NCBI GenBank assembly: GCA_937930235.1
Contig: CALGLJ010000137.1
Location: forward strand, 1-54,101
Source of the DNA: an uncultured Verrucomicrobiales bacterium
GTDB taxonomy: Bacteria > Verrucomicrobiota > Verrucomicrobiia > Verrucomicrobiales > Akkermansiaceae
Length of the DNA stretch: 54,101 nt
Direction of reading: 5' to 3'
The position numbers and the translations under genes are program-made. Shown one piece after another: positions 36,258-44,840 of this stretch (within the stretch, counting starts at the first letter, position 1; each line of letters begins with the position of its first letter). The notes beneath the pieces were generated by a model. That model saw nothing but the letters and a program-made list of their open reading frames with translations. It did not search any database and was not told the origin of the DNA.

Positions 36258-38264
36258 TTATGAGCGATAATATTCGCGATAGAGCTTTCTGGAAAATTCT
36301 CCCGCAGCATCCACGCTCCGCATGCGAATCCAACGATAGCGCACCATTAAGCTGATGACCTGCTTGAAGCGGGGGACGAAATTTCCACGCCATTTTTGAG
36401 ACGACACCTTCCACTCCTGCCCTAGGTAACAGATTCTCCCCTGACTCAATAGGCGCCAGCTCACTTCGACATCTTCCATCAGGGGTTGATCTGGAAATCC
36501 CCCAATTCGTGATAAAGCCTCTCTGCGCACAATCAAGGTCTGGTCACCAAACACGGAGCCTCCGAAGAGAACGCGAGCCTCGTTTAGGAACTCCACCAGC
36601 AAAAGCCGTAAATTACCGGGGGCGAAGCGCTGGCCCAGCGCAAAGGCGGGACAATCGTCATGCGTATGCACCACTCGAAAAAGACGAGAAATCCAGCCCT
36701 CTTCTGGCTGCGTATCAGCATGGATGATGGCGATGAGATCCGCCTGGCTCGCTCTGATTCCCGCCGCAATTTGTTCGCCACGTCCACGCTCAGACTTGAT
36801 GACATGACAGCCTTGATCTTGCGCCACGAACACCGAGCGATCACTCGACCCACCATCGACTACAATGATTTGCTCTGCTTCAGGACTCTTTTCTCGCAGG
36901 TCTTTCAAGAATCCTTCCAGTTCATCTCCCCCATTCAACACGGGCACTACTAGATCAAGAGTTTGTGGAGCCGGATCGCTTTTCGCTTGAAAACGTGTTC
37001 TCAAAAAACGGCTTTCCCAAATGAGAATGACAAAGAAGGGCGCCCAAGATGCGACAACCCAAGCGCGATGATAGCCCCACCCAAACTCTGTTGTCAGTCC
37101 CTCCCAAGCCATGAAGTAGATCGACATCGTCCCGCAGAGAACTATCCAACTCAAAGAAGGACGAAGCGCCACAAAGGGAATGATCCACGTGAGATACCAA
37201 AAATGCACCACGGGAGAACAAATCACCAAAGTCGACATCACCACCATCGCGACTCGATGCAAATGAAGCTCCTTTCCCTTCAACGTCCGCCATCCAAAAA
37301 ATAAACCGACTGATACAAAGACAAGTAAACCAAAGTGCCGAGCCGTGAAGTCTGAGAATCCCACCAAACGTAAGCTCTCATAAAGTCCACCATTGAAAGC
37401 TCCATCTTTACCAAATCCAAAAAGCCCCACCAAGGCTTGCGCAAAATGTTCTCCAAAGAAAAGACTCGGCAAGATTAAGACCGCGATGAATGGGAGCGAC
37501 TTCTTCCAATCTGCACGCACCAGAAAATAGGGAAGCAAAACAATGACAATGATTTTCATTTGCACCGCCACCCCGAGCCAAAACCAAGCCCAAGCATTCT
37601 GCTTGCGATGAGCCATCAATAAGGCCGTCAACATCGCCCCCACCATCAAGCTATCAAAGTGGGCCTCGGCGGCAAAAGACGCCAACACCAGAGGATTGAA
37701 AGCGTACAATCCAAGCCATCGAATATCCTGTCCGAATTCTCGGAAAAGAAAGATCAAGATTCCCAAGACCCAAAAATCACCCACGAGAGCGACAATTTTA
37801 AAAACCCAAAGATCATACCAAAGCCAACTTGCAGCCGCCATGATGAGCTCCACTCCCGGAGGATAGGCCGTCAGCCGATCACGATGGTTCACATCCTTCC
37901 AATACTCATCGCGGTGATCGATCCACCTCTCATCGTCAACGACCGTAGCGTATGGGTTTTCTCCTTTCCAAATCAGACTTCCTTCCCAGAGATATCGATT
38001 CACATCATCAGACACCGGAGCCTGCCAAAATGCCAACCTCACGACAAAGCTTCCGAGAAGAATCAAAAAAATTCCCTGTTTGCGTGTCAACTTTGGGAAC
38101 GCAAATACCATGATTCCCATCGCCACCCAGATGGCCAGGTGATAAGCGATCCGGAAAAAGCCTCCCTCCTGAATACGGTCTAACTGACCCCAGCAAATCG
38201 CAAGAATCGAGATCAGGACAAGACTAAAGCCCCAAAGAATGCCGCGCCATCGATTGCTTGTCAC
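36258..38264 (-). CDS. GT87-like membrane glycosyltransferase fused to a TIGR04283-type GT2 domain
   Basis: This 668-residue fusion has two domains. Residues 1-430 form a polytopic GT-C/GT87-like mannosyltransferase-type domain with about ten helices and the early luminal acidic motif PVSDDVNRYLWEG. Residues 434-668 are a GT2-type transferase with VVPVLNGGDELEGFL, the DxD-like IIHADTQPEEGW and FGDQTLIVRR...GGFPDQPLMEDVEVSWRL, the signature of the TIGR04283 family, whose members accompany arsenosugar genes. The start is GTG, overlapping the upstream GT2 stop. It is divergent from the arsM-arsS operon. It probably adds a sugar to a membrane-bound or lipid acceptor; the substrate is inferred. 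Confidence 0.83.
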   Translation of the reverse strand: MTSNRWRGILWGFSLVLISILAICWGQLDRIQEGGFFRIAYHLAIWVAMGIMVFAFPKLTRKQGIFLILLGSFVVRLAFWQAPVSDDVNRYLWEGSLIWKGENPYATVVDDERWIDHRDEYWKDVNHRDRLTAYPPGVELIMAAASWLWYDLWVFKIVALVGDFWVLGILIFLFREFGQDIRWLGLYAFNPLVLASFAAEAHFDSLMVGAMLTALLMAHRKQNAWAWFWLGVAVQMKIIVIVLLPYFLVRADWKKSLPFIAVLILPSLFFGEHFAQALVGLFGFGKDGAFNGGLYESLRLVGFSDFTARHFGLLVFVSVGLFFGWRTLKGKELHLHRVAMVVMSTLVICSPVVHFWYLTWIIPFVALRPSLSWIVLCGTMSIYFMAWEGLTTEFGWGYHRAWVVASWAPFFVILIWESRFLRTRFQAKSDPAPQTLDLVVPVLNGGDELEGFLKDLREKSPEAEQIIVVDGGSSDRSVFVAQDQGCHVIKSERGRGEQIAAGIRASQADLIAIIHADTQPEEGWISRLFRVVHTHDDCPAFALGQRFAPGNLRLLLVEFLNEARVLFGGSVFGDQTLIVRREALSRIGGFPDQPLMEDVEVSWRLLSQGRICYLGQEWKVSSQKWRGNFVPRFKQVISLMVRYRWIRMRSVDAAGEFSRKLYREYYRS

Positions 38265-39751
38265 GCTGCTGCTCGCTGTTCCGTGTAACTTCTGACCCCT
38301 GTGATCAAAAAGCCGTATCCATAAAAGAGAAAGAACACGATCCCTCCGGGAACTCCCTGGATCAAAAAGCTAATCATGGTAATCAGGCAGTAAAACGCCG
38401 CTCCAATCTCGACGAGAGGGATCCAGTCAATCTTCGTTCGATAAGATTTTTTCGCAACCTCTCCCCTTTTCGGAGTCCTGACAAATCCACTTTTCACTCC
38501 GAGGAGCGCCTCCAGAACGGCCCGGGTATTCGAGATACAAATCCCAAATCCAATCGTAACCATACTTGGCAACCAGAGAATGCGTCGAGTCCAGCCCTCG
38601 GGATGAAGATGCCGCTGACTCGTGAGATAAAGAATACTAGGCCCCAGAGTGGCAATGATGAGAGGCAGAATCAGAAAGGCCGTTCCCCCAATTCCTGAAA
38701 ACCTCGGAATCAAGAGCGTGAGCGGCAGAGATAACAGCGCCAAAGTGAACATCAAAAGATGAGCCACATAATGAAGAAGGTGAAAAGCCGCCTGACTCTT
38801 AGCCAAAAGACTGATTGGCGAGCGCATCACAGTTCCGATCAACTTTTTCGCAGTCTGAACCGAGCCTTTCGCCCACCTAAATTGCTGACTTTTAAAAGCC
38901 GAATATGTTTCCGGAAGCTCCGCCGGCACGACCACATCAATGGCATACTCCAGCTTCCACCCTTTCAGTTGGCAGCGGTATGAAAGATCCAAATCTTCGG
39001 TCAAAGTATCCGCATGCCATCCGCCTCCATCTTCGATCGCTTCTTTCCGCCAAATCCCGGCAGTTCCATTAAAATTCAAAAAGAGCCCATTCGCAGAACG
39101 CGCCACTTGCTCGATAACAAAATGACCGTCAATCCCGACCGATTGCGCTTTGGTCAGGGAAGAATGTTCCGCATTCAAATGCCCCCAACGAGCCTGCACG
39201 AGACCTGTTTTTTCATCCTGAAATAAGGGTAACGTTTTCTTTAAAAAATCAGGATCAGGAACGAAATCACTGTCGAAAATCGCAAAATAATCACCGGTAG
39301 CCGTCTTCATCGCCTCTTTCAAGGCGCCTGCTTTGTAACCGACCCGATCTTCTCGTCGGCAGACCTCGATGGATACGCCCTCCGCCTGCAAATCGCTCAC
39401 GACTCGGTCGACGAGATCACGAGTTTCATCAGTAGAATCATCCACCACTTGGATTTGATGTTTCCCCTGCGGGTAGTCCATCTTGGCCACCGTTCGAATG
39501 ATGCGTTCCGCCACATTCAACTCATTGTAGAGTGGAATCTGCGTTGTCACCATGGGCCAAGCGTCATCTCCCTGCCCTGATATTTTTGCTAAAAATGTTT
39601 GCTCCTGCTTCTGCTGCCTCTCACGAGTTTCCTTAATCCGTCGTCCAAAGAGGAAGAGCAAAACGTAAGTATTCAGGCCGTAAATCATTAGCCCTACCGC
39701 GGCCAGACAATAGCAGCCAAAAAGAATCCATAAAATCCAGTCAATGATCAC
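38261..39751 (-). CDS. Processive family 2 glycosyltransferase (cellulose synthase-like)
   Basis: This 496-residue membrane GT2 has one N-terminal helix, a catalytic domain with VTTQIPLYNELNVAERII, the DxD segment FDSDFVPDPDF, the acid/base TEDLD and the processive signature QQFRW, and then about four C-terminal helices. This is the layout of cellulose-synthase-like and glucomannan-type transferases that polymerise or transfer sugars from NDP-donors on the cytoplasmic face. The start is GTG at 39751, 212 bases from the divergent arsenosugar operon. It overlaps the downstream fusion gene by four bases. Whether it works with the arsenosugar pathway or with separate polysaccharide synthesis is open. 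Confidence 0.88.
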   Translation of the reverse strand: MIIDWILWILFGCYCLAAVGLMIYGLNTYVLLFLFGRRIKETRERQQKQEQTFLAKISGQGDDAWPMVTTQIPLYNELNVAERIIRTVAKMDYPQGKHQIQVVDDSTDETRDLVDRVVSDLQAEGVSIEVCRREDRVGYKAGALKEAMKTATGDYFAIFDSDFVPDPDFLKKTLPLFQDEKTGLVQARWGHLNAEHSSLTKAQSVGIDGHFVIEQVARSANGLFLNFNGTAGIWRKEAIEDGGGWHADTLTEDLDLSYRCQLKGWKLEYAIDVVVPAELPETYSAFKSQQFRWAKGSVQTAKKLIGTVMRSPISLLAKSQAAFHLLHYVAHLLMFTLALLSLPLTLLIPRFSGIGGTAFLILPLIIATLGPSILYLTSQRHLHPEGWTRRILWLPSMVTIGFGICISNTRAVLEALLGVKSGFVRTPKRGEVAKKSYRTKIDWIPLVEIGAAFYCLITMISFLIQGVPGGIVFFLFYGYGFLITGVRSYTEQRAAA

Positions 39752-40607: not shown

Positions 40608-41747
40608 ATGATAGCTACTACCGAATCTTCCGTCAAAGAACGCTACGCCGCCGCTTCTCAGGCTGTAGAAGCAGATCTCTGCTGCCCCGTTGATTATGAT
40701 CCAAAGTATTTAAAAGTCATCCCGGACGAAGTCATCGAGCGCGATTACGGCTGTGGCGACCCCTCTCAATACGTTCTCCCCGGAGAGACCGTCCTTGATC
40801 TGGGGTCCGGCACCGGGAAAATTTGCTTCATCGCTTCCCAAGTCGTAGGGGCAGAAGGAAAAGTCATCGGTGTTGATATGACCGATGACATGCTGGAGGT
40901 GGCACGTCGATACGCTCCCGAAGTCGCAAAAAACATTGGCTATGGAAACGTAGAATTCCGCAAAGGACGCATTCAAGATCTGGGCCTAGATCTCGAACTA
41001 CTCGACTCCGAACTTGCTCAGGCTCCCATTAAAAATGTTGAGGATTATCTCGCCGCCGAATCTCTTTCTAACAAGCTGCGCAAGGAGCAACCGCTCATCG
41101 AAACCGAGTCTGTCGATGTCGTGGTATCAAACTGCGTGCTCAATCTGGTCGAAGCGGACCAAAAGAAGCAACTGTTTGAGGAAATCTTTCGCGTATTAAA
41201 AGTAGGCGGCCGAGCCGTGATCTCTGACATCGTGAGCGATGAACCCATTCCACAACATCTGGCAGATGACGCAGATCTCTGGAGCGGCTGCATCTCCGGA
41301 TCCTACTCCGAAATCGATTTCCTGAAGGCATTCGAAGACGTCGGATTCTATGGCGTGGAGTTATTGAAGTTTGAAAGCGAACCCTGGCAGACACACGAAG
41401 GAATTGAATTTCGTTCCGTTACCGTCCAAGCATTCAAAGGAAAAGAAGGAGCCTGTCTTGATCGCAACCAAGCCGTTGTTTATAAAGGCCCTTTCAAATC
41501 CGTCCTCGATGATGACGGCCATCGCCTGGACCGTGGAGTCCGCACTGCGGTCTGTGAAAAGACCTACGAGATTTACAAAAAAGCTCCCTATGCCGAGTTC
41601 TTCGAGCACATTGATCCACTTACGGAAGTCCCCGTAGCAGAGGCCCCAGCATTTGATTGCAACCGCAACGTCGCGCGGCAACCATCTGAAACCAAAGGGG
41701 CAGAATATCGTGAAACGATCACCGATTGTGGCCCTAATTGCTGCTAG
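40608..41747 (+). CDS. arsM: Arsenite S-adenosylmethionine methyltransferase ArsM
   Basis: ArsM methylates As(III) stepwise with SAM to mono- and dimethylarsenicals. In this 379-residue protein the SAM motif I is VLDLGSGTG (62-70) and motif GVDMTDDMLE follows. The As(III)-binding cysteines are recognisable as Cys49 in DYGCGDP, Cys176 in VSNCVLNL and Cys228 in WSGCISG, near the positions of the three Cys in the algal enzyme. An N-terminal CC (25-26) and a C-terminal CGPNCC extend the thiol set, as in other long ArsM proteins. It follows the TIGR04282 gene by 8 bases and precedes the phosphorylase by 5, inside the arsenosugar operon. Confidence 0.93.
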   Translation: MIATTESSVKERYAAASQAVEADLCCPVDYDPKYLKVIPDEVIERDYGCGDPSQYVLPGETVLDLGSGTGKICFIASQVVGAEGKVIGVDMTDDMLEVARRYAPEVAKNIGYGNVEFRKGRIQDLGLDLELLDSELAQAPIKNVEDYLAAESLSNKLRKEQPLIETESVDVVVSNCVLNLVEADQKKQLFEEIFRVLKVGGRAVISDIVSDEPIPQHLADDADLWSGCISGSYSEIDFLKAFEDVGFYGVELLKFESEPWQTHEGIEFRSVTVQAFKGKEGACLDRNQAVVYKGPFKSVLDDDGHRLDRGVRTAVCEKTYEIYKKAPYAEFFEHIDPLTEVPVAEAPAFDCNRNVARQPSETKGAEYRETITDCGPNCC

Positions 41748-41752
41748 ACATA

Positions 41753-42619
41753 ATGCACACTCCCCCACTCATAGGAGTCATCGGTGGTAGCGGGCTCTAC
41801 GAACTAGAGCATCTCACTGATCTCGAAGAAATTGAGGTGAAGACTCCCTATGGAGACCCTTCCGACACCCTCATGAAAGGTTCCCTCAATGGGCGCGCGG
41901 TCGTCTTCCTCCCCCGCCACGGAAGAGGTCACCGCCTCTTGCCCACTGAGATAAACCATCGCGCAAACATCTGGGCTCTGCGCTCACTCAATGTCCGCTT
42001 CGTCATTTGTGTCACTGCGGTTGGGAGCCTGCGCGAAGATTACGCACCCGGCCACGTCGTCATTCCTGATCAATATGCCGATCGCACCTGTCAACGCCCT
42101 CAATCAACGTTTTTTGGCCACGGGATTGTGGCCCACGTCTCCCCGGCCGATCCATATAGCCCTCACTTGCGAACCCTTCTGGAGAAACACAGCAAGGAAG
42201 CCGGCCTTGTGACCCACTCTCAAGGAACTTATGTCAACATGGATGGTCCGGCATTTTCTTCTCGTGCCGAGTCACAGATTAACCGACAGCTCGGCCTCGA
42301 CATCGTTGGGATGACCAATGTGCCAGAGGTGAAACTCGCCCTCGAAGCAGAGATGGCACTCGCCACCCTCGCGATGGTCACCGATTACGATTGCTGGAAG
42401 GCGGAAGAAGACGCGGTCACCACAAAATCCGTTTTACAACACCTTCTTGATAATGCGGAAAATGCCAAAAAAATCCTCACTCAGGTCATCCCTAACATTC
42501 CTTTGACCGCCGATTGGCCCGAACATTCCACTCTCGCAAAATCCCTCGCCACCCCGCGTGAATTTTGGCCCGAGGAAACGATTGAAAAATTACGCCCCAT
42601 TCTGAATGAACTCATTTGA
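41753..42619 (+). CDS. 5'-methylthioadenosine phosphorylase homologue in arsenosugar operon
   Basis: This 288-residue nucleoside phosphorylase is of the MTAP/PNP trimeric type. It has GVIGGSGLYEL, FLPRHGRGHRLLPTEINHRANIWAL, the MTAP-type Asp pair in VTDYDCW and MTNVPEVKLALEAEMALATLAMV. The phosphate/purine loop usually read as EGPRFSTRAES is here DGPAFSSRAES, a change in the active-site region. Normal MTAP cleaves methylthioadenosine. Between arsM and arsS it more plausibly cleaves the adenine from 5'-deoxy-5'-dimethylarsinoyl-adenosine to give the arsenosugar ribose 1-phosphate. That substrate is inferred from context. ATG 41753 is 5 bases after arsM, and its end overlaps arsS by 14 bases. 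Confidence 0.88.
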   Translation: MHTPPLIGVIGGSGLYELEHLTDLEEIEVKTPYGDPSDTLMKGSLNGRAVVFLPRHGRGHRLLPTEINHRANIWALRSLNVRFVICVTAVGSLREDYAPGHVVIPDQYADRTCQRPQSTFFGHGIVAHVSPADPYSPHLRTLLEKHSKEAGLVTHSQGTYVNMDGPAFSSRAESQINRQLGLDIVGMTNVPEVKLALEAEMALATLAMVTDYDCWKAEEDAVTTKSVLQHLLDNAENAKKILTQVIPNIPLTADWPEHSTLAKSLATPREFWPEETIEKLRPILNELI

Positions 42620-43571
42620 TCAGGCACTCACTGACGCCAAAAAATCACTCACTCGCACGGACGCTCGCGTGTTGCAACTCAACATGGGCAAACTCTGCAA
42701 CCTCACCTGCGTCCACTGTCACGTGAATGCGGGCCCGCATCGCAAAGAGCTCATCACTCACGAAGATCTCGAACAAACGATCGATTGGTTTGAAAAAACA
42801 GACATCCCGGTGATCGACCTCACCGGCGGTACCCCTGAAATGCATCCCGATTTCCGCGCCCTCGTAGAAAGGATTCGCTCATTTAAAAAGCCACGCGAAA
42901 TCATCACTCGCCTCAATGCCACCATTCTCAACGAACCTGGTTATGAATGGGTCTCTGAATTTCACGCCCAGCACAAACTCACCATCATCGCCTCCATGCC
43001 ATGCTACTCCCCGGAGAACGTGAATGCCCAGCGGGGCGAAGGAGTTTTTGACTCCTCCATTTCAGCCTTTCAAAAGCTGAACTCCCTAGGCTATGGATCT
43101 GATCCCGATCTCAAAATGCACTTCGTCTTTAATCCCCACGGAGCAAAATTACCCCCTTCTCAAGAGGCGCTCGAAGCAGATTACAAACAAGAGCTGAAAC
43201 AACACTTCGGTATCGTTTTCAATAACCTCTATTGCATCACCAACATGCCCATCGCTCGCTATGCTTCGTACCTCAAAAGGCAGAAGAAACTCGCGGCATA
43301 CCAAGAGCTCTTAATGACCTCCTTTAACCCTTCATCCATCGATGGACTCATGTGCCGTGATACCATCAGCGTGGACTGGAATGGTCAGGTCTATGATTGT
43401 GACTTTAACCAACAACTCGACCTTAAAATCGAAGGTCAGTCCCATCTCAAAGTGTGGGATCTTCAGTTAGACCAATTTTCTCAATTTCCCATTCGCACTG
43501 CAAGCCACTGCTTTGGTTGCACCGCAGGCTCGGGATCCTCATGCGGAGGAACTCTTGTCGCCGTAAATTAG
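42606..43571 (+). CDS. arsS: Arsenosugar biosynthesis radical SAM protein ArsS (cysteine form)
   Basis: ArsS is a radical SAM enzyme thought to transfer the 5'-deoxyadenosyl group of SAM to dimethylarsenite, giving 5'-deoxy-5'-dimethylarsinoyl-adenosine. The 321 residues carry the cluster motif CNLTCVHCHVNAGP (Cys31, 35, 38), the family LTGGTPEMHPDFRALVE, CYSPENVNAQRG and a C-terminal Cys-rich segment CFGCTAGSGSSCGG (Cys302, 305, 313). In part of the family a selenocysteine occurs in this C-terminal region. Here every such codon is TGC or TGT, so it is the Cys version. It overlaps the phosphorylase by 14 bases. Confidence 0.93.
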   Translation: MNSFDQALTDAKKSLTRTDARVLQLNMGKLCNLTCVHCHVNAGPHRKELITHEDLEQTIDWFEKTDIPVIDLTGGTPEMHPDFRALVERIRSFKKPREIITRLNATILNEPGYEWVSEFHAQHKLTIIASMPCYSPENVNAQRGEGVFDSSISAFQKLNSLGYGSDPDLKMHFVFNPHGAKLPPSQEALEADYKQELKQHFGIVFNNLYCITNMPIARYASYLKRQKKLAAYQELLMTSFNPSSIDGLMCRDTISVDWNGQVYDCDFNQQLDLKIEGQSHLKVWDLQLDQFSQFPIRTASHCFGCTAGSGSSCGGTLVAVN

Positions 43572-43613: not shown

Positions 43614-44351
43614 ATGAAAGCATTACTCACTACCCTCACCATGATTGGCCTCAGCATGAGCAACTTGCTCTCCTTTGACCAGACACATGCAAATTTCACA
43701 AAACTCATCACCGATACTGCGGTGCCGACAGGGATCAAATACCCTGAGCTGAAGAAAAAACATTCTGACCTCACGGCTTACCTCACTGACCTCGAAAACG
43801 TACCTTACGCAGACTTTAGGGGATGGAATAAAAACGACCAACTGGCGTTCTTGATTAATCTCTACAATGCGGCAACTTTGGAGCTCGTTTTAAAGCACTA
43901 TCCTATCCGCTCACTGAAAGATGACGTTGGAGGTGAAAAAGGCCCGTGGAAAATCCCGGCGGTGAAAATGTTTGGTAAGCACACCACTCTCGATGGACTG
44001 GAACACGAATTCATTCGCAAGTATTACAATGAACCACGAATCCACTTCGCTCTCAACTGCGCTTCAGAAGGTTGCCCCCCACTTTTAAACGAAGCTTACA
44101 CCGGAGAAAAGTTAGAGAAACAGCTCGATACTCAAACACGCCAGTTCCTCGCTGATAAAAAAGCCAATTCCGTTTCGGGAAAAACGCTTAAAATTTCTCC
44201 TCTTTTCGATTGGTTCAAAGATGACTTCATTAAAAAGCACGGCTCAGTGGAAGCCTTCCTTGATCCGTACTTTACCAAATCAAAAATCCAGAAAGGAAAG
44301 ATGAACATTTCCTACACCGACTACGGCTGGAAACTCAACTTGGCAAAATAG
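43614..44351 (+). CDS. DUF547 domain-containing exported protein
   Basis: This 245-residue protein has an N-terminal signal-like hydrophobic stretch (LLTTLTMIGLSMSNLLSF) and a DUF547 domain: NDQLAFLINLYNAATLELVLKHYP, TLDGLEHEFIR, and HFALNCASEGCPPL, with an invariant Cys pair and a likely papain-like or transglutaminase-like fold. Its biochemical role is not known. It sits in the arsenosugar operon after arsS and before arsC, and the repeated 14-bp motif is directly upstream. An envelope role in handling the glycosylated product is possible but speculative. Confidence 0.9.
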   Translation: MKALLTTLTMIGLSMSNLLSFDQTHANFTKLITDTAVPTGIKYPELKKKHSDLTAYLTDLENVPYADFRGWNKNDQLAFLINLYNAATLELVLKHYPIRSLKDDVGGEKGPWKIPAVKMFGKHTTLDGLEHEFIRKYYNEPRIHFALNCASEGCPPLLNEAYTGEKLEKQLDTQTRQFLADKKANSVSGKTLKISPLFDWFKDDFIKKHGSVEAFLDPYFTKSKIQKGKMNISYTDYGWKLNLAK

Positions 44352-44357
44352 CACTTC

Positions 44358-44840
44358 ATGCCCAAAAAACATATTCTCATTCTCTGCACCGGGAATTCTT
44401 GCCGCAGCCAAATGGCTGAAGCTCTCCTCCGCGAGGTCTGCGGGGGAGACTTTTTTGAGGTGATCAGCGCTGGAGGCGACCCTGCAGGCTACGTCCACCC
44501 TCATGCAATCGAAGTCATGCAGGAGATCGGGCTCGATCTTGGAAAAGCACGCTCTAAGAATCTCTCAGAATACCTTACGCAAAACATTCACACCGTCATC
44601 ACGGTTTGCGGGAAAGTCGATCAAGTCTGCCCCGTCTTCCCGGGCCAACTGAACCGCTACCACTGGCCCTTTGACGATCCGGCCTACGCTGAAGGCACCG
44701 AAGAAGAAATCAAAAATGAATTTCGCCGGGTGCGTGATGAGATCAAACTCGTTTGTGAAGCATACATTTGCGGAATCCGAGAAGGTCTCAGCACCAACTT
44801 GCTAGCTCGACCCTCATCACGAAATATTGCCGACCTCTAG
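44358..44840 (+). CDS. arsC: Thioredoxin-coupled arsenate reductase ArsC (LMW phosphatase-like)
   Basis: This enzyme reduces arsenate to arsenite, the substrate of ArsM. It has 160 residues with the low-molecular-weight phosphatase P-loop CTGNSCRS (Cys10 to Arg16) and the redox pair Cys84 and Cys91 in VCGKVDQVCPVFPG, at the 7-residue spacing of the S. aureus pI258 type. The catalytic acid is in WPFDDPA (Asp106/107). A 25-residue C-terminal extension is longer than usual. It starts 6 bases after the DUF547 stop and ends 24 bases before the opposing rnr gene. No terminator is visible in that gap. Confidence 0.93.
   Translation: MPKKHILILCTGNSCRSQMAEALLREVCGGDFFEVISAGGDPAGYVHPHAIEVMQEIGLDLGKARSKNLSEYLTQNIHTVITVCGKVDQVCPVFPGQLNRYHWPFDDPAYAEGTEEEIKNEFRRVRDEIKLVCEAYICGIREGLSTNLLARPSSRNIADL

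Follow-up and report, generated by a model that had tools for sequence, protein, structure and literature searches.

An MTAP-type phosphorylase in a verrucomicrobial arsenosugar operon, a candidate for adenine removal from the ArsS product

The window (the whole stretch of 54,101 nucleotides analyzed here, contig CALGLJ010000137.1 of the uncultured Verrucomicrobiales bacterium assembly GCA_937930235.1, genome G000) carries an MTAP-type nucleoside phosphorylase gene between arsM and arsS. We consider it likely that its product, a predicted phosphate-dependent MTAP, was recruited into an arsenosugar operon and there phosphorolyses the ArsS product, feeding the arsenosugar glycosyltransferases. 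Two lines of evidence support this reading: MTAP accompanies arsenosugar genes in unrelated bacteria as well, and the linked copies repeatedly have an enlarged 5' pocket. The initial annotation had already placed an MTAP homologue at this site, overlapping arsS by 14 bases, and this was borne out by an intact ORF that scores 306.7 bits against TIGR01694 (NCBIfam; curated cut-off 274.85). The genes of the operon and those beside it are:

36258-38264, minus strand: membrane protein with a C-terminal TIGR04283-like domain at residues 438-647 (159 bits, cut-off 182)
38261-39751, minus strand: GT2 glycosyltransferase on the divergent arm; the related genome G142 has it in synteny at 80% identity
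39964-40599, plus strand: DUF2064 / TIGR04282 CofC-like "arsenosugar biosynthesis glycosyltransferase" (187.6 bits, cut-off 134)
40608-41747, plus strand: arsM, arsenite methyltransferase (best matches are ArsM families)
41753-42619, plus strand: MTAP-type nucleoside phosphorylase, 288 aa, intact ORF (TIGR01694, Pfam PNP_UDP_1, AlphaFold model)
42606-43571, plus strand: arsS, radical SAM enzyme adenosylating the arsenical (TIGR04167, 421.9 bits, cut-off 300)
43614-44351, plus strand: DUF547 protein, frequent in arsenosugar clusters (Pfam DUF547)
44358-44840, plus strand: arsC-like low-molecular-weight phosphatase/arsenate reductase (TIGR02691, 130 bits, under the cut-off of 174)

The order DUF2064-arsM-MTAP-arsS-DUF547-arsC runs along one strand with small gaps, only 5 bp separating the end of arsM (41747) from the MTAP start. 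The marks of an ArsS cluster were found at the locus, i.e., an ArsS over the TIGR04167 cut-off, an adjacent ArsM and a TIGR04282 protein over its cut-off. All the usual partners in bacterial arsenosugar clusters (ArsM, ArsS, TIGR04282, TIGR04283 and DUF547) are in or beside the operon, and DUF547 adjoins arsS also in other Verrucomicrobiales and on plasmids. What sets this operon apart from those clusters is the MTAP gene, carried by a minority of arsS loci; we know of no published arsenosugar cluster in which an MTAP is named as a member. The gene at 36258-38264 joins the N-terminal half of a membrane protein to the TIGR04283-like domain; it is syntenic in G142, where the fusion is kept (L228, 4642-6660).

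The protein shares with the MTAP/MtnP enzymes (EC 2.4.2.28; human 1cb0, RsfP 4glf) the family, the fold, the phosphate and adenine residues, the DYDCW motif and the lid histidine. Its AlphaFold model (pLDDT 94) gave a VIA Z of 40.2 to 4glf and of about 36 to human MTAP, compared with about 25 to the best PNPs. Human R60, H61, T93/S, A94, T197, S178, D220, D222, M196 and F177 are all present, and no phosphate, base or ribose residue is altered. DYDCW is kept, as had been noted from the start, and so is the lid histidine (His128, human H137 of the neighbouring subunit). The differences from MTAP/MtnP are the arsenosugar operon itself, two replacements in the 5' pocket (human V233 to Thr, and L279 of the neighbouring subunit to Ala) and a long branch shared with one sister. 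The positions of interest within the gene are:

42143-42145, plus strand: P131, three residues after the lid His128, F/M140 to Pro (Phe, Leu, Met or Val in 158 controls)
42242-42274, plus strand: active-site loop DGPAFSSRAES, residues 164-174, ordinary by comparison with relatives and human MTAP
42422-42424, plus strand: T224, aligned with human V233, a methylthioribose contact (PMC5738077)
42548-42550, plus strand: A266, equivalent by structural alignment to human L279 / Schistosoma mansoni Q289 of the neighbouring subunit

The loop had been taken in the initial annotation as altered from a usual EGPRFSTRAES and as a sign of a new substrate. In a survey of 124 MTAPs, taken from genomes of the order together with the 80 closest genome loci, EGPRFSTRAES did not occur once, and the commonest loop was DGPAFSTRAES (48 of the 124, none of the 48 beside arsS). 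The human loop (PDB 1cb0) is EGPRFSSRAES, with the same Ser as the window loop, and the T-to-S change is also found in an acidobacterial MTAP that is not linked to arsS (L131). Since the commonest sequence among relatives differs from that of the window only by a residue in the human state, the loop is ordinary and we rejected it as a specificity marker, DGPAFS[T/S]RAES being usual for the order. Phosphorolysis of the ArsS product thus lost its main initial argument, the loop, and the idea itself now draws its support from the recurrent linkage and the 5' pocket. A truly altered loop, DGPRLGTRAES, was found in the MTAP of plasmid p1 of Cupriavidus sp. KK10 (L233:10433-11371), in which F177 is replaced by Leu and S178 by Gly, both invariant in the 158 controls. 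Directly adjoining this MTAP is a radical SAM gene with weak similarity to TrsS.

Within the order, we judged the pairing of the two genes by coordinates in 142 genomes (33 with ArsS, 111 with MTAP) and found no MTAP-arsS adjacency beyond the window genome. A nucleoside phosphorylase near arsS was likewise found in none of 20 extended Verrucomicrobiales loci. In the wider set of 115 extended arsS loci, about 110 have no MTAP nearby. Several arsenosugar clusters of other bacteria do contain one. In B. glumae bglu_2p, MTAP-TIGR04283-TIGR04282 lie on one strand at ca. 6 kb from arsS. In a plasmid of Acinetobacter portensis the order is arsS-TVP38/FAD-DUF547-TIGR04283-TIGR04282-methyltransferase (arsM)-phosphate transporter, with a convergent MTAP last, and in the Cupriavidus KK10 plasmid it is phosphate transporter-arsM-arsS-FAD-TVP38 followed by MTAP. 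Two genomes of the phylum of G488 complete the set: G632, where TVP38-FAD-TIGR04283 and, after 15 bp, MTAP lie downstream of arsS, and G859, where TIGR04282 is followed after 24 bp by an MTAP, divergent from arsS. MTAP thus abuts TIGR04282 or TIGR04283 genes in three clusters (B. glumae, G632 and G859). An MTAP was present on three of the six types of arsS-bearing plasmids, compared with 73 of 72,556 plasmids overall, and the genomic arsS flanks outside the window (about 1.1 Mb) contained two MTAP matches where, by our own estimate of one MTAP per 4 Mb, ca. 0.25 would be expected. On the MTAP tree the linked copies call for at least five changes, three of them forced by well-supported branches, which requires at least three to five separate associations of MTAP with arsenosugar genes.

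Some further observations were made in these clusters. That of A. portensis is complete and lies on a plasmid named pJNE5-X3_NDM-1 (L361, NZ_CP096121.1 136000-148500). In two clusters that are not related to each other, a small AhpD/carboxymuconolactone-decarboxylase-like gene immediately precedes arsS (L335:5585-5917 and L233:5343-5939). In the Akkermansiaceae genome UBA4581 a fast-evolving MTAP with an ordinary pocket lies ca. 1.7 kb from an arsC-DUF547 pair (L109:3122-6825), arsS being on another contig, and is possibly a second ars-associated MTAP.

The 5'-substituent pocket gave the other line of evidence. In the human enzyme V233 and V236 contact the methylthioribose and V231 is about 4 Å away (PMC5738077), while the neighbouring subunit contributes L279 to the 5' pocket, a residue that corresponds to Q289 in S. 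mansoni (PMC5147791). Of this hydrophobic 5'-alkylthio pocket the window MTAP keeps V236 and L237 and has Thr for V233 and Ala for L279; T224, A266 and P131 are all shared with its one sister, the MTAP of G142. The assignment of A266 is by the endpoints of the structural alignment (268=281 in human; 267/268/269=290/291/292 in S. mansoni). The L279 column contains Met, Ile, Leu, Phe or Val in the 158 unlinked controls, plus one Ala and one Gln. In the S. mansoni enzyme the same residue has changed in nature and was tested by mutation; there Gln admits the 5'-OH of adenosine, whereas the Ala of the window protein opens space. When all 55 columns with at least 98% large hydrophobic residues in the 158 unlinked MTAPs were scanned against the seven linked ones, only V231, V236 and L279 had gone from large to small in at least two linked copies, and all three belong to the 5' pocket. 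The changes are V231 to Ala in Cupriavidus and G632, V236 to Ala in B. glumae and Acinetobacter, and L279 to Ala in the window and G142. Such a change is present in six of seven linked and one of 158 unlinked MTAPs, a comparison of three positions framed after inspection of the data and made among related, hence non-independent, sequences. The sole exception among the linked copies is G859, with an ordinary pocket. RsfP (PDB 4glf), from an Antarctic soil metagenome, is 72% identical to the linked MTAP of Acinetobacter and also has V236A. The paper describing RsfP gives no genomic context for it. The protein may come from an arsenosugar cluster, and V236A may not be confined to linked MTAPs.

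As to copy number, a PF01048 search of the window genome (86.6% complete) retrieved this MTAP and one DeoD-type PNP only, with neither a second MTAP nor an MTA nucleosidase. The congener G135 (ValS 87% identical) is without ArsS and has its MTAP between serA and DUF368. At the homologous site the operon-bearing genomes have no MTAP: G142 (ValS 84%) has the serA and DUF368 flanks on a single contig, with 4.1 kb between them and no MTAP, and the serA flank of the window genome, on contig C30, likewise has none. G142 carries the same operon, split between a contig with DUF2064-arsM-MTAP and one with arsS-DUF547-arsC (61, 80, 77, 77, 58 and 61% identity to the window, in this order), with a 4-bp ATGA overlap and syntenic flanking genes, and it has no other PF01048 protein besides the operon MTAP. 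At L083:6852-7054 the contig end inside arsS is a low-complexity repeat, probably an assembly artefact, and contig C108 of that genome (L227) carries the remainder of the gene.

Phylogenetically, the window and G142 MTAPs form a clade (support 100) with a long stem, placed within the radiation of Verrucomicrobiales housekeeping MTAPs. The phylogeny speaks both ways for the enzyme being "repurposed", as was initially thought probable: it nests among housekeeping enzymes, yet there it branches on a long stem with the G142 operon copy as its only companion. The term may overstate the case for an MTAP that is the only one found in its genome. One could suppose that an ordinary housekeeping MTAP, unrelated to arsenic chemistry, entered this genus's ars operon by chance and replaced the serA-DUF368 copy. 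Such a gene would be the sole MTAP, as found in both genomes, and would nest among housekeeping MTAPs; a clade uniting the operon copies with the congener MTAP is indeed compatible with the data (p-AU 0.555). However, the operon MTAPs are only 55-58% identical to that of G135, their divergence from it being 4-4.7 times that of ValS, while the ratio for other pairs averages 1.03 and does not exceed 2.85. The recurrence in unrelated bacteria and the changed pocket residues also go against a chance arrival, which we regard as improbable. The operon MTAP would have originated by either lateral replacement or fast divergence.

The lack of any other MTAP in either genome means that the window MTAP cannot be purely dedicated to the arsenical. 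With no other MTAP or MTA nucleosidase found, it probably retains a housekeeping role in this lineage, on MTA and 5'-deoxyadenosine. This leads to another explanation, in which MTAP would remove the 5'-deoxyadenosine from abortive ArsS turnover, along with MTA, relieving the inhibition of the radical SAM enzyme and leaving the arsenical nucleoside untouched. A cyanobacterial MtnP does cleave 5'-deoxyadenosine in a phosphate-dependent manner (PMC8102628), and the absence of another enzyme for MTA in the genome agrees with such a role. A clean-up role would leave the 5' pocket at its usual size, however, and an enlarged pocket was seen in all linked copies but one; moreover, the MTAPs of three clusters abut glycosyltransferases rather than arsS, and radical SAM genes without a linked MTAP are abundant. 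We consider clean-up alone unlikely, if somewhat less so than chance arrival. Being the sole copy, the window MTAP may act on both arsenical and clean-up substrates.

In the pathway preferred here, ArsM would methylate arsenite in the first step. ArsS, described as the enzyme adenosylating the arsenical (Cheng et al., 2021, as cited in PMC12159101), would then join dimethylarsenic to C5' of the adenosyl group of SAM. We infer that the resulting arsenical nucleoside is the substrate of MTAP, which would convert 5'-deoxy-5'-dimethylarsinoyl-adenosine and phosphate into adenine and 5-deoxy-5-dimethylarsinoyl-ribose-1-phosphate. In both name and profile TIGR04282 is close to the CofC nucleotidyltransferases, and the TIGR04283 proteins form a family of glycosyltransferases. 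Because MTAP adjoins these genes in three clusters, the arsenical sugar phosphate is their likely input, from which the CofC-like protein and the glycosyltransferase would build arsenosugars. An alternative fate is salvage, i.e., MTAP would recover adenine from adenosine or MTA and so help to regenerate the SAM used by ArsM and ArsS. The nucleocidin cluster has an APRT-PNP pair with this role (PMC8694150), but the operon contains no recognisable adenine phosphoribosyltransferase or methionine-salvage gene, and none of the family genomes checked has mtnA; we regard salvage as very improbable. That general absence also renders the missing mtnA uninformative as a sign of repurposing.

The nearest parallel to the proposed phosphorolysis is FlB / NobB, the 5'-fluoro-5'-deoxyadenosine phosphorylase of fluorometabolite clusters, also encoded beside the maker of a 5'-substituted adenosine and yielding a substituted ribose-1-phosphate. 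The linkage is the same in the window, where MTAP overlaps arsS, and recurs elsewhere. FlB differs in its element (fluorine, against a dimethylarsinoyl group), in the partner (fluorinase, against a radical SAM enzyme) and in being proven biochemically, whereas the function of the window MTAP is predicted. A separate housekeeping MTAP, as would be expected beside a dedicated phosphorylase of the FlB type, is lacking in the window genome and G142 and is apparently present in G632, where the best MTAP match of the genome (E 1.5e-94) outscores the linked copy (292.4 bits) and thus points to a second MTAP.

Extended to other bacteria, this reading would be that an MTAP-type step removes adenine in arsenosugar biosynthesis, having been recruited several times independently by opening of the 5' pocket, with its product activated by TIGR04282 and transferred by TIGR04283; on the sequences compared, we see the case for this broader claim as evenly balanced. 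The literature searched for arsenosugars, ArsS and phosphorylase assigned no enzyme to adenine removal from the ArsS product, and a phosphorylase repeatedly encoded near arsenosugar genes, its 5' pocket changed, is now a named candidate for that step. If true, this would account for the two "glycosyltransferases" of arsenosugar clusters, one of them resembling a sugar-phosphate nucleotidyltransferase, and arsenic would be, next to fluorine, another element with a 5'-adenosine adduct that goes to a recruited nucleoside phosphorylase.
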